Below are positions 21,165-31,183 of a DNA stretch of 35,373 bases, piece after piece. The notes beneath the pieces were generated by a model. The model was not told the origin of the DNA and ran no database searches. It worked only from the letters and a program-made list of their open reading frames with translations. Position 1 is the stretch's first letter. The number at the start of each line of letters is the position of its first letter. This DNA comes from Frankiales bacterium (GTDB taxonomy: Bacteria; Actinomycetota; Actinomycetes; Mycobacteriales; Geodermatophilaceae). A program made the translations under genes and the position numbers. The DNA lies in assembly GCA_025465155.1 (NCBI GenBank), contig JAODNJ010000570.1:1-35373 (forward strand), in the 5' to 3' direction.

Positions 21165-21848
21165 GTGATGTCACTCGATAACCGACACCTGTCGGCCATG
21201 CCCTTCTGGGCGAATCCCCGCCTTCGCACTGTCGCCGACCCGGAAGGCGGCGGCGGAAACGACGACGACGATGAGTCGAACGACGACGACGACGATTCAG
21301 ACGACGACGAAGATGACCCAGACGCCGACAAGACTGACGAAGAGATCCGCGCCGAACTCAAGTCGACACGCGACGCGCTCAAGGGTGCGAACGGCGTGTC
21401 GAAGAAGCGCAGGATCGCACTCAAGGCCAAAGAGGCCGAACTGATCGAGGCGCGGAAGCCGAAGGCTGTCACCACCGACCCGAAGACCGAAATCGACGTC
21501 GACGCGATCAAGAGCGAAGCGACTCGTGAGGCCATGGCGATCGCCGACACTCGAGCGAAGAAAAGCGAAGTGCGCGGGGCGCTGCGGGCGGCCGGCATCA
21601 AGCCGGAACGCATCGCGAAGCTGGTCGGCATGGTCAACCTCGACGATCTGGACGTGGACGACGACGAGGTGACCGGTGTCGACGACGCGGTGGACGAACT
21701 CAAGCGGGAATGGCCGGAACTGTTCGGCGTCGTAAAGACGAAGCGTCGGCCGGTTGCGGGCGGCGGCGACCGCGACGGCGACCGCGAAACGGCCTCCAAG
21801 AAAAGCGCGTCACAGCTGCAAGCCGAGCGACTGGCGGGAAAGCGCTAA
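21165..21848 (+). CDS. Scaffolding protein
   Basis: The product is 227 aa from GTG at 21165; the next codon is ATG at 21168, and AAAGGA suits either. Residues 28-55 are a dense Asp run, 60-130 a Lys/Glu/Ala-rich coiled coil (EIRAELKSTRDALKGAN, RIALKAKEAELIEARKP), and the C-terminus is basic (TKRRPVAGGG, then SASQLQAERLAGKR). Acidic N-terminus, long helix and basic C-terminal capsid-binding tail are the usual plan of scaffolds, and it lies immediately before the major capsid gene. The prohead would be built around it and it would leave at packaging. No protease domain is seen. Confidence 0.85.
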   Translation: MMSLDNRHLSAMPFWANPRLRTVADPEGGGGNDDDDESNDDDDDSDDDEDDPDADKTDEEIRAELKSTRDALKGANGVSKKRRIALKAKEAELIEARKPKAVTTDPKTEIDVDAIKSEATREAMAIADTRAKKSEVRGALRAAGIKPERIAKLVGMVNLDDLDVDDDEVTGVDDAVDELKREWPELFGVVKTKRRPVAGGGDRDGDRETASKKSASQLQAERLAGKR

Positions 21849-21856
21849 GGATCTGC

Positions 21857-21862
21857 TACTAT
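21857..21862 (+). promoter_or_regulatory. -10 box TACTAT for the capsid transcript
   Basis: TACTAT fits TANNNT. The predicted start, six or seven bases on, is at about 21869, two bases before the structured leader's first stem. The box lies only nine bases after the scaffold stop. Confidence 0.55.
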
Positions 21863-21868
21863 CTCCGA

Positions 21869-21966
21869 CTAAGGCCCCCTTAGGGCTCGGTGGGCTCGCG
21901 ATGAGCTAGGCGCTAACCGGCGCAAATCAACTTGTCGCCCCATCGGGGTAGAAGGGGGCCTTTTCC
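21869..21966 (+). ncRNA. Structured 5' leader of the major capsid mRNA with sequestered ribosome binding site
   Basis: AAGGCCCCCTT (21871-21881) pairs perfectly with AAGGGGGCCTT (21952-21962), enclosing 70 nt. The 3' arm contains the capsid Shine-Dalgarno (GAAGGGGG, 21951-21958), whose G-run ends eight bases before GTG 21967. The 3' arm is also followed by TTTT, as in an intrinsic terminator. Inside are possible hairpins GCTC/GAGC (21894-21906), GGCG/CGCC and CCCC/GGGG (21938-21948), the last two mutually exclusive. Two nested micro-ORFs (GTG at 21890, ATG at 21901, overlapping by ATGA) are present. It is the only late gene start with a long structured leader. I infer control of capsid synthesis or mRNA stability. 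No known riboswitch class is recognised. Confidence 0.65.
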
Positions 21967-22914
21967 GTGGCTCGCGCAAATGTCGATACCTGGCTTGTCG
22001 AAGATCGAGGTTCCGACCTCATTCAGCGAATCGGCTTCGCCTCCGTCGTGGAGACGAACTTCCGGTCGGTCCCCATGACCACCTACATCAAGAGCGAGCC
22101 TCGGATCGCCGATATGGACGTCGATGTCATCCCGAAGGGTGGCACGTACGGCGAAGACACTTCCGGCGTCGACGAGGTGCTTCTGACCACCTTCAAGTAC
22201 GGTAAGGCGCTGCGCCTGGCCGAAGAGGACTCGGAAGACACCACCGTCGTCAACGTGCTCGACGCGAAGAAGCTGTCGTGGGGTCGCTCGTTCGCGACCA
22301 AGTACGACAACGCGTCGATCGGCGTCGTGGCCGCGCAGAACGGCATCACCGTGCCGCACACCTCGATCTATCGCACGCTCTCCCAGGCGGACTCGACCAC
22401 CGGCTATGCGGCCGGTGCGAACCTCCTGTCGGGTGCCGCGCTCACGTACGACGAACTGTCCGCCCTGGTCGGTCTCGTCGAGGTTTCCGGGTACCACGAC
22501 GACTCGACGTCGCTGTTCTTCGCGCACCCCGCTTTCAAGGCGGCCATTCGTGGGATCAAAGACACGCAGGGTCACCCGATCTTCATCCCCAACCCGGTCG
22601 CGTCCGGCATCGCCGGCACGCTGTTCGGCTACCCGGTGAAGTTCACGAATGGTGCCAAGACCACGGCCACCGCCTCGAGCAACCCGACCGGCGCGGGCGG
22701 GGCGGCCGGCGTTGCCGGTAACCCCCTCTTCGGTTTCGGGAACACCGAACTTCTCCTGGCGGGCAAGCGTTCCGGCCCCGAGTCGGTCGTCATCCCCGGC
22801 CGTGACGGCCTGTCGGCCCTCACCGACGAGGACATCCTCAAGGTGCGCGCCCGTCGTGCGTTCACGGTCGCCATGCCGGCCGCCGTGGCGCTGTTCGAAC
22901 TCACCCACGCGTGA
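21967..22914 (+). CDS. Major capsid protein (HK97 fold)
   Basis: The product is 315 aa, GTG start after a GAAGGGGG site. It follows the scaffold, and the composition fits actinophage HK97-fold capsids: an N-arm with ETNFRSVPMTTYIKSEP, an E-loop-like segment DVIPKGGTYGEDTS, a central helix with DAKKLSWGRSFATKYDNA, and P/A-domain segments LTYDELSALVGLVEVSGYHDD, SLFFAHPAFKAAIRG and GTLFGYPVKFTN. The F-A-H-P-x-x-K and L-x-G-x-P-V patterns are typical of the family. No N-terminal delta domain is seen, which agrees with a separate scaffold. It should be the most abundant virion protein, and it alone has the structured leader. A GC stem-loop follows the stop. Confidence 0.92.
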   Translation: MARANVDTWLVEDRGSDLIQRIGFASVVETNFRSVPMTTYIKSEPRIADMDVDVIPKGGTYGEDTSGVDEVLLTTFKYGKALRLAEEDSEDTTVVNVLDAKKLSWGRSFATKYDNASIGVVAAQNGITVPHTSIYRTLSQADSTTGYAAGANLLSGAALTYDELSALVGLVEVSGYHDDSTSLFFAHPAFKAAIRGIKDTQGHPIFIPNPVASGIAGTLFGYPVKFTNGAKTTATASSNPTGAGGAAGVAGNPLFGFGNTELLLAGKRSGPESVVIPGRDGLSALTDEDILKVRARRAFTVAMPAAVALFELTHA

Positions 22915-22919
22915 TTGGT

Positions 22920-22946
22920 CGGGGCGCGCTCTAGGGCCGCGCCCCG
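22920..22946 (+). terminator. GC stem-loop after the capsid gene
   Basis: CGGGGCGCG pairs with CGCGCCCCG (9 bp, 9-nt loop), five bases after the stop. No U-tract follows. It may raise capsid mRNA stability or reduce read-through. Confidence 0.7.
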
Positions 22947-30145: not shown

Positions 30146-31183
30146 ATGACACTGCACAGAGGCTTCGCGAAGAATGCCGCCACGACGCCCGCTGACACCC
30201 GACTCATGGATGCCGGCTCGCTGATCAGGAACGCGGACGGCAGCGTGCGCACCGGCGTTCTCGGATCGCCCCTGCCGCTCGTCACCGGCACGGCCGGAAT
30301 GAGCGTCAACATCGGTGCCGCGAACTTCGTGCAGAGTAAGAGCACGGCAGACGGCGCTATGCGCTTCGCAAACGACGGCGTGATTTCGCAGGCGCTGCCG
30401 GCCGCGCCCACCGCGAATTCCCGTTACGACGTCGTCTACGTCAAACAGGACGACGACACGACGGGCGACACGGACGCGCTGCCCGTCTCGGGCGTCGTCT
30501 CCGGTGCTGCCGCTGCCACTCCGACCGTGCCGGCCGTGCCCACCGGGGCGATCGCCTTGGCCTCGATCCGCGTGACGACCGGCATGACGGCGACCAGTGC
30601 CGCCGTCATCACCCCGCTTTTCGATGCCACGGCCGCCATGGGCGGCTCGATCCTGTATCGCACGCTCGCGGACCTGCAAGCGGACACGAAGGTGCAGAAC
30701 GCGCAAGTCGGGCAGGAGATCGGCAGCGGCGGCGAGTACATGCGCATCGCTGGCGCGTGGACGCCCACGTTCATTCCCAACTTCGTTCGTCACACGAAAG
30801 CGAAGTTTTCGACCTCGACTTCGGTGGGCGGCGGATCGGTGGTCCTCACGCACACCCCGGCGACCATGCCTTTCGCACAGCGCGTGGTCATCGAGTCGGT
30901 CTCGCACCCGCAAATGGGCACGGCCGGTTACTACTCGATCGGTGCAACAGCCACCGGCGCGGGCGTCTTCGTCGACTCGGACGGCGCTAGTGCGTCGACG
31001 ACCGGCGTTCCCAACTCGAGTTGGGTGCTCGCCGGCACGGCCGCCACCTATGTGCGCGTGTTCACGGTCGACATCCCGCCGAACGTCGCGTGCACGATCA
31101 CGCTCACCGACGACCAGTCTCAGACGGCGGTAAAACAAAGCTTCTTCTCGATCACGAAGTTCATGGCTGGCGAATTCGCGTGA
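30146..31183 (+). CDS. Minor tail protein, tip/spike type (345 aa)
   Basis: I chose the ATG at 30146 (TAAGGA upstream). The N-terminal region (about 1-150: FAKNAATTPADTRLMDAGSL, NIGAANFVQSKSTADGAM, RYDVVYVKQDDDTTGDTDAL, IALASIRVTTGM) follows the pattern of actinophage minor tail proteins that begin with a trimerising baseplate-like domain. The C-terminal region (about 225-345, FVRHTKAKFSTSTSVGGGSV to CTITLTDDQSQTAVK) is a beta-rich tip domain. It probably belongs to the receptor-facing tip. Functional detail is not available from the sequence. Confidence 0.78.
   Translation: MTLHRGFAKNAATTPADTRLMDAGSLIRNADGSVRTGVLGSPLPLVTGTAGMSVNIGAANFVQSKSTADGAMRFANDGVISQALPAAPTANSRYDVVYVKQDDDTTGDTDALPVSGVVSGAAAATPTVPAVPTGAIALASIRVTTGMTATSAAVITPLFDATAAMGGSILYRTLADLQADTKVQNAQVGQEIGSGGEYMRIAGAWTPTFIPNFVRHTKAKFSTSTSVGGGSVVLTHTPATMPFAQRVVIESVSHPQMGTAGYYSIGATATGAGVFVDSDGASASTTGVPNSSWVLAGTAATYVRVFTVDIPPNVACTITLTDDQSQTAVKQSFFSITKFMAGEFA

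Follow-up and report, generated by a model that had tools for sequence, protein, structure and literature searches.

What does the leader of a phage capsid messenger do if it can pair with its own ribosome-binding site? The window, by which we mean the whole stretch of 35,373 nt that we analysed, is an entire contig (G000:C429) and corresponds to a tailed phage with terminase, portal, scaffold, major capsid protein (MCP) and tail genes, all on the plus strand. Between the scaffold stop codon at 21848 and the MCP start codon, a GTG at 21967, lie 118 nt, compared with gaps of 39 nt before the scaffold gene and 59 nt after the MCP gene in the open reading frame map. An earlier note on this DNA had described the other late genes as having no or short leaders; the present comparison of gaps covers the neighbouring genes. 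The features of the locus are the following.

21165 to 21848, plus strand: scaffolding protein gene, 5' of the MCP gene (PF06810, phrog_2303).
21854 to 21862, plus strand: extended -10 element TGCTACTAT, which contains TACTAT (21857-21862) and predicts an MCP mRNA start at about 21869.
21869 to 21887, plus strand: P1, the 5'-terminal local hairpin or hairpins that hold the anti-Shine-Dalgarno (anti-SD) strand (from position and a shuffle test).
21871 to 21881, plus strand: anti-SD strand AAGGCCCCCTT, the 5' arm of an 11-bp long-range stem (from complementarity and predicted fold).
21893 to 21907, plus strand: H1, local hairpin GGCTC[GCGAT]GAGCT with a GNRAY pentaloop, a loop motif common in relatives.
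21898 to 21938, plus strand: P2, long-range helix of GCGATGAG (21898-21905) with CTTGTCGC (21931-21938) (from predicted fold and covariation).
21909 to 21923, plus strand: P3, predicted apical hairpin in GGCGCTAACCGGCGC; seven type B leaders have an equivalent one.
21950 to 21962, plus strand: SD region AGAAGGGGG (21950-21958) and 3' stem arm AAGGGGGCCTT (21952-21962) (from predicted fold).
21967 to 22914, plus strand: MCP gene, HK97 fold (PF05065, E = 1.4e-8; phrog_10 major head protein).
22921 to 22945, plus strand: strong GC hairpin directly 3' of the MCP stop codon, with comparable strong hairpins in 10 type B relatives.

The stem that drew attention to this gap is exactly as the earlier note gave it: AAGGCCCCCTT and AAGGGGGCCTT are perfectly complementary, enclose 70 nt and include the SD G-run, and the TACTAT box is present within an extended -10 element. 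The region 21857-21985 has a predicted folding energy of -58.5 kcal/mol (z = -2.81), which none of 200 dinucleotide shuffles reached, and the SD G-run has a predicted long-range pairing probability of 1.0. The mutually exclusive hairpins were also confirmed, since P1 can form as CTAAGG[CCC]CCTTAG (21869-21883) or as GGCCC[CCTTA]GGGCT (21873-21887), each of which excludes the long stem. P2, which can be extended by pairing of CTCGGTGGG (21886-21894) with CCCATCGGG (21939-21947), excludes H1. Two micro-ORFs that had been called nested, GTG GGC TCG CGA TGA (21890-21904) and ATG AGC TAG (21901-21909), both exist; they are not nested but overlap in different frames, and they are not conserved in frame. 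Leader-peptide attenuation was rejected, as, with respect to the MCP, the ATG of the conserved core is spread over the three reading frames (23, 18 and 14 of 55), and the lengths vary.

Relatives were collected in overlapping MCP searches: those of phage records contributed 8 and 19, those of viral loci 11 and 25, and a further one the best 80 of its 224 viral loci. After removal of leaders that were identical over 95 nt or shorter than 95 nt, 80 distinct leaders out of 131 were kept, with MCPs 31-57% identical to that of the window (the window itself excepted). The named relatives are Microbacterium phages (Wyvern, Isperia and OscarSo), Streptomyces phages and one satellite, the rest being viral contigs, and in a tree of the 80 MCPs the window falls inside a group of 27. 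For eight extended MCPs (Rooney, PHTowN, phiRKBJ001, Wentworth, Dryad, Yara, L228 and L242), the scoring apparently worked from an internal start codon; their true leaders lie outside it, and each was counted as a miss. The leaders of five more distant MCPs (L054-L057 and L027) were likewise outside the scoring. Only the window's own genome matched among 112 genomes of the family, and 5 of 397 genomes of the order did, the window's own included; one of these (L053, 36.7% MCP identity) is AT-rich upstream of the gene, and no such leader was seen there. We found no MCP relatives in the bacterial genome_contigs.

Nucleotide searches added little to this set. With the window leader as query, blastn returned no match in phages; the Wyvern leader retrieved Isperia and OscarSo besides Wyvern itself, and weak places at E 0.9 in four more records, which fall under annotated genes. 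Scans of viral_contigs with DNA patterns yielded 41 and 69 stretches, with an MCP of the window's family in only 4 and 7 of them. Some relatives differ in architecture. A very strong hairpin, apparently a different leader, precedes the N-terminally extended MCP in Rooney and its kin (L005, L020-L023), and four viral contigs (L211, L218, L221 and L241) retain a P2 core, CCCGUGAUGGGG..CCCAUCAC, 60 nt before an N-terminally extended MCP. The leaders of Zuko and KimJongPhill (L018, L019) are long, the gap there being about 230 nt; they offer alternative pairings, AAGCCCUC/GAGGGCUU, and another, separate hairpin, CCUCCUUCG/CGAAGGAGG, covers the SD.

We defined the promoter-like box as TGN or TG followed by TANNNT, ending 84-112 nt before the start codon. 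All 27 leaders of the window's MCP clade carry this extended -10 box, versus 1 of the 53 other distinct leaders, and it occurs at 114 of 9830 positions drawn at random from these loci (1.16%). In a set of 28 leaders, 19 had the box at that place and 9 more distant ones did not. P1, taken as a hairpin of at least 4 bp, begins 7-10 nt after the box in 27/27 clade leaders, with 8.0 expected from shuffles; these offsets were set after inspection of the leaders, and the eight clade leaders that had no part in setting them carry P1 in every case (2.1 expected). At six control offsets, a hairpin was present in 4-8 of 18 leaders, the 18 being those already seen to carry the box. The arms of P1 differ widely among leaders (GGCC, CACGG, CAUAGC, CGCC, GGUGC, GAGCG and others), and therefore the pairing is kept while the letters change. 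P1 energies are ordinary for such GC-rich DNA, so the case for P1 is carried by its position and its covariation. The MCP gene has its own predicted extended -10 promoter, and the messenger would therefore begin at the first arm of the leader.

Hairpins beyond the leader bear on the extent of this messenger. Those that follow the MCP stop codon are GC hairpins, very strong and with no clear T-run, in the window, L002, L003, L004, L012, L013, L028-L030, L033 and L040; no comparable hairpin follows the MCP gene in L008, L010, L011, L015, L006, L014, L018 or L019. By eye and uncounted, many relatives have a terminator-like hairpin after the scaffold stop and ahead of the MCP promoter box (L002 at about 2840-2880, L003, L004, L006, L011-L014, L028-L030, L033 and L040), making a terminator-promoter-leader cassette that is not seen in the window. 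The hairpin after the MCP gene and, in several relatives, those seen by eye before the box suggest that the capsid messenger may be separately transcribed and bounded.

We found that pairing of the SD (P > 0.5) with a strand more than 45 nt upstream, here called the lock, is predicted in 48 of the 80 leaders, some of these calls (L004, L012 and L040 among them) being marginal and due to strands other than P1. For this count the SD was called by simple motif rules, backed up by a search for purine runs; 7 of the 80 leaders have no SD-like run, and the lock is absent in 25 of the other 73. As scored on the MCP tree, 24 of 80 leaders are SD-free and 9 lack an SD call, so that hiding of the SD is not universal. 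When 15 of the 80 leaders were compared with mononucleotide shuffles, the shuffle means were 0.21-0.37; in 12 of these 15, at most 5% of 60 shuffles matched the leader, and L195, L229 and L180 were not unusual at the 5% level.

In type A leaders, the window's type, the SD pairs with the arm plus loop of P1 itself. Because the anti-SD strand lies in the first hairpin, the folds with a free and with a hidden SD are mutually exclusive. The anti-SD and SD strands are AAGGCCCCCUU/AAGGGGGCCUU in the window, AAGGCCCUUCC/GGAAGGGCCUU in L008, AAGGCCCCUC/GAGGGGCCUU in L010 and L015, AAGGGUCGCCUU/AAGGCGGCCCUU in L172 and AAGGGUCACCUU/AAGGUGGCCCUU in L183, and they change on both sides: CCCUU/AAGGG in the window corresponds to CUUCC/GGAAG in L008, CCUC/GAGG in L010, GCCUU/AAGGC in L172 and ACCUU/AAGGU in L183. 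A local hairpin of 4-6 bp uses the same anti-SD strand in the window and eight further leaders (9/9), namely L008, L010, L015, L051, L172, L180, L183 and L191; the type B leaders in the lock test do not have a metastable-type 5' hairpin in this form.

Because an arm is wrongly placed for L015, L051 and L050 in alignments A4 and A7, the lock was judged not by pair counts but by an own-versus-other test, in which each anti-SD strand was scored against the SD strands of 15 other leaders. The own partner was best for L008, L051, L172 and L183 and shared the top score in L010, L015, L180 and L191. The window's strand scored higher with the SD strand of one other leader than with its own (31 vs 29). 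The fit was weak in L033, L050 and L178, and there was none in the type B leaders of Wyvern, OscarSo, L013 and L028. The lock is scattered over deep branches of the MCP trees, with at least 11 state changes, and is therefore old, repeatedly gained and lost, or both. Two further pairings lie close to the ribosome-binding site. The AGGAGG of the SD region GCCCGCAGGAGGGC in L193-L249 also fits a local hairpin, GCCC[GCAGGA]GGGC, as a second way to hide the SD. Many leaders have a start-codon hairpin that pairs an upstream GCC with the GGC of AUGGC (UGCC..AUGGCA in OscarSo, AGCC..AUGGCU in L028), in which the flanking base seems to follow codon 2.

The middle of the leader holds a second pair of competing structures. 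In the window, the loop and 3' arm of the GNRAY hairpin also pair with the strand just before the SD, with 8 of 8 pairs, and this pairing is P2; H1 and P2 are thus mutually exclusive. In an own-versus-other test of P2, 7 of 10 loop-plus-arm classes, the window's included, were unmatched by any other class's partner; L178 had one tie, and L033 (bulged) and L180 failed. On these comparisons, P2 is a long-range helix that covaries across the leader family. H1 is predicted in the nascent RNA (closing pair P > 0.5) in 21 of 51 leaders that bear the motif, the window reaching 0.47. Streptomyces-type leaders have a nascent H1 probability below 0.1, and their GNRAY hairpin sits in P1 instead.

The Streptomyces-type leaders, 27 of which were selected by a GGTATATT-like box instead of the extended -10, share in their alignment an anti-SD strand, P2, a closing helix that contains AGGAGG, and a P1 whose loop is GUGAU, GCGAU or GUGAC. 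The stem of P1 changes on both sides while its loop is kept. In this alignment, 98.4% of cells pair, with both-side changes at 5 pairs and in 14 cells (shuffle means 2.4 and 4.3), and the covariation score is 0.125 vs 0.098 in shuffles (0/500 as high), slid versions of the alignment scoring at most 0.058. P2 is hardly tested in this group, since 12 of its 14 pairs are invariant. The seven type B sequences on their own showed modest covariation, at 2 pairs, with 15 of 500 shuffles as high. An inverted repeat, ATTCATC-ACCA-GGTGAAT, at columns 7-24 of alignment A8 (L198, L199, L239 and related leaders) extends over the -10 box and is possibly a DNA operator.

Covariance models extended these groups to a limited degree. 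Model R1, built from the seven type B sequences, also matched L033, L013 and, weakly, L012, and did not match the window or other type A leaders. Model R2, built from the Streptomyces-type leaders and run on 90 sources, matched L225, L233 and the outlier L047 (E 1.4e-7) and did not match the window leader; a weak match at 30448-30502 on the other strand of the window (E 0.087) was taken for chance. As both models miss the window leader, the window's membership in the family rests on anatomy. In 394 genomes of the class, R1 gave three matches at E <= 0.001, whose surrounding ORFs were, by eye, ordinary host genes. R2 had no match in 396 genomes of the phylum, which shows little because that sample holds no genome known to carry an R2-type leader.

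The earlier note had recognised no known RNA class, and for Rfam this is borne out, as no family fits: the whole window has no match at the gathering score, and 21800-22000 has none at E <= 5. Loci L198, L002, L049 and L210 gave nine matches at E <= 5, all below the gathering score; one of them (E 1.2, other strand) overlaps the L049 leader, and the one with the lowest E value (0.0039, L210 374-443) falls beyond the leader. A resemblance to the C/D box (GUGAUGA) seen by eye was discarded, the Rfam C/D-box matches falling outside the leaders, and one to hammerhead ribozymes was weighed by eye and dropped. A DNA operator palindrome is disfavoured because the arms covary while the loop stays.

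By comparing sequences we demonstrated both sets of pairings, the promoter-like box and, as a prediction, the hidden SD. The stem is real, and on this comparative evidence it is one case of a conserved leader family. Of the readings considered, control of translation, one of the options in the earlier note, is the best supported: the compensatory changes in related phages that it had proposed to look for were found in the lock and in P2, and a distant strand is predicted to hide the SD in 48/80 leaders. Our working model, to which we give an even chance of being right, is a bistable 5' leader of the MCP messenger that controls its translation, local hairpins forming first and a stabler lock later. 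Transcription from the extended -10 promoter would yield an MCP mRNA that starts at the first arm of the leader. In the emerging RNA, small local hairpins would form first, P1 at the 5' end tying up the anti-SD strand and H1 presenting its GNRAY loop. A more stable fold would then replace them: P2 forms, and the anti-SD strand leaves P1, the P1 loop serving as toehold, to pair with the SD and lock the messenger. Early ribosomes, bound while the lock is still open, would make capsid protein, and unused or aged messengers would be shut.

Minimum free energies of the growing chain place the local hairpins before the lock. In the window, most chains of up to 86 nt (-37.1 kcal/mol) are predicted to carry a P1-type hairpin, and those of 92 nt or more the lock (-54.7 kcal/mol at 98 nt). 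As the SD arm appears at chain lengths of 84 to 90 nt, there is no length at which the entire SD is exposed and unpaired; at equilibrium there is no open period, and the model needs a slow exchange. The passage from P1 to the lock may be slow enough for the SD to stay accessible for a while, and the leader may in this way affect translation.

The recurring GNRAY hairpin tied to the capsid gene is the most interesting part of the analysis and was absent from the original finding. A hairpin with this loop (at least 4 pairs, G-U allowed) occurs within 170 nt in 63 of 80 leaders, which are not 63 independent events, as the rule was derived from the leaders in which it was counted, many of which are closely related, and as a few matches (L230, L047 and L242) are not at the usual place. 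With Watson-Crick pairs only and 125 nt, it occurs in 55 of 80. It is tempting to see in it a protein-operated switch, in which a phage or host protein on the GNRAY hairpin, or on P2, sets MCP translation, for example as feedback by free capsid or scaffold protein. Such a switch would explain why the loop stays constant while stems and position change, at a Watson-Crick-only density of 5.8 per kb in the leaders vs 0.279 per kb outside them in these loci; why the Streptomyces-type P1 keeps its GUGAU, GCGAU or GUGAC loop under a stem that changes on both sides; and why L046, L048 and L049 have two GNRAY hairpins per leader. The binding protein is, however, hypothetical, the motif was defined on the same, often closely related leaders, the window-type loop is also constrained through its pairing in P2, and the 17/80 leaders that lack the hairpin, like the three misplaced matches, speak against it. 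We regard this switch as possible on a tentative footing. It can also be joined to refolding, since a capsid, scaffold or host protein on the GNRAY hairpin, as a candidate site, may favour one of the two states.

A 5' stabilising stem had been offered as a further function. Here the hairpin at the start would only guard an abundant mRNA from 5'-dependent decay, and the SD pairing would be incidental. Because all 27 clade leaders open with a hairpin, 7-10 nt after the -10 box and thus placed relative to the predicted start, such a role has some footing; the window and 10 type B relatives also have a strong hairpin behind the MCP stop, and Escherichia coli precedents such as ompA appear in the reference list of PMC3997798. 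As the sole function, it leaves the covarying P2, the GNRAY loop and the far-upstream pairing of the canonical AGGAGG SDs in Streptomyces-type leaders unexplained, and we consider it rather unlikely.

The suggestion of a transcription attenuator or intrinsic terminator before the MCP gene, which came from the GC stem followed by TTTT in the window, found no support. Within the last 14 nt before the start codon, TTTT occurs in 1 of 80 leaders, that of the window, and TTT in 8; the T's of type A complement the 5' AAGG of the leader, as the window's TTTT does, and L008 and L051 retain the helix although they have no T-run. We therefore think termination very improbable. Chance folding of GC-rich DNA, for which the ordinary local P1 energies and the frequency of four-pair hairpins in shuffles (0.06-0.54; in another estimate 0.19-0.54, with 1.0 for the window) might be cited, is scarcely credible against the tests of position, covariation, own-versus-other pairing and loop enrichment, all of which speak against it.

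Translational control by refolding has parallels in well-known systems. The leader of the MS2 maturation (A) protein gene uses long-distance pairing of the SD, delayed by a metastable hairpin. As there, an upstream strand hides the SD here and a small hairpin uses that strand first, with a transient open state (which we infer in our case) and a stable closed one. Unlike the MS2 leader, which belongs to an RNA phage genome, this one stands on the mRNA of a DNA phage, with its own predicted promoter, serves the MCP, and has a conserved P2 domain and GNRAY hairpin. The T7 gene 10 (capsid) transcript has its own promoter and a 5'-terminal stem-loop, and its leader is not known to hide the SD. Our leader shares with it the capsid gene, the promoter (here predicted) and a stem-loop at the mRNA start, and differs in its predicted hidden SD. 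The loops of the lambda boxB, or nut, hairpins are GNRNA; GNRAY hairpins resemble them in being short, close to the mRNA start and capped by five bases of GNRA-like sequence, and a boxB-type GNRNA hairpin with at least 4 Watson-Crick pairs occurs in 0/80 leaders. The MS2 coat-protein operator is a small hairpin through which a phage coat protein controls translation, and the candidate site proposed here is likewise a small hairpin, with a different loop.

The kinetic side of the model also has precedents. In the MS2 5' UTR, a transient structure permits translation before a cloverleaf forms, as summarised in PMC6733600, which cites van Meerten 2001. The same article describes the hok and aapA3 type I toxin mRNAs as having metastable hairpins and, later, a long-distance SD lock, the combination predicted here. 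For aapA3, it reports that nascent hairpins block early translation and that 3' truncation yields the active mRNA (PMC6733600); our leader would differ from aapA3 in that its early state would be the open one, and it is not known to be processed.

Among the titles and abstract openings that we covered, a body of literature outside which most subscription papers fall, no such capsid leader is described. An RNA or regulatory feature in the gap before the MCP gene is annotated in none of the 13 phage-record stretches examined, so that this is an RNA element without an Rfam match and without annotation in those public records. It is conceivable, if improbable, that these leaders form an undescribed actinophage RNA family, in which the GNRAY hairpin and a switchable SD lock make up a translational operator for capsid, scaffold or a host factor, and by which HK97-fold double-stranded DNA phages would set the supply of their shell protein through RNA refolding.

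The balance of capsid against scaffold and portal in tailed phages is usually attributed to promoter strength and gene order. Together, these comparisons suggest that capsid output in the window phage and related viruses may be controlled through RNA refolding. The window's clade includes the isolated Microbacterium phages OscarSo, Wyvern and Isperia, in which the leader is open to testing. A conserved leader that hides the capsid SD and carries a recurring GNRAY hairpin would offer a post-transcriptional point of control over the virion's most abundant protein.
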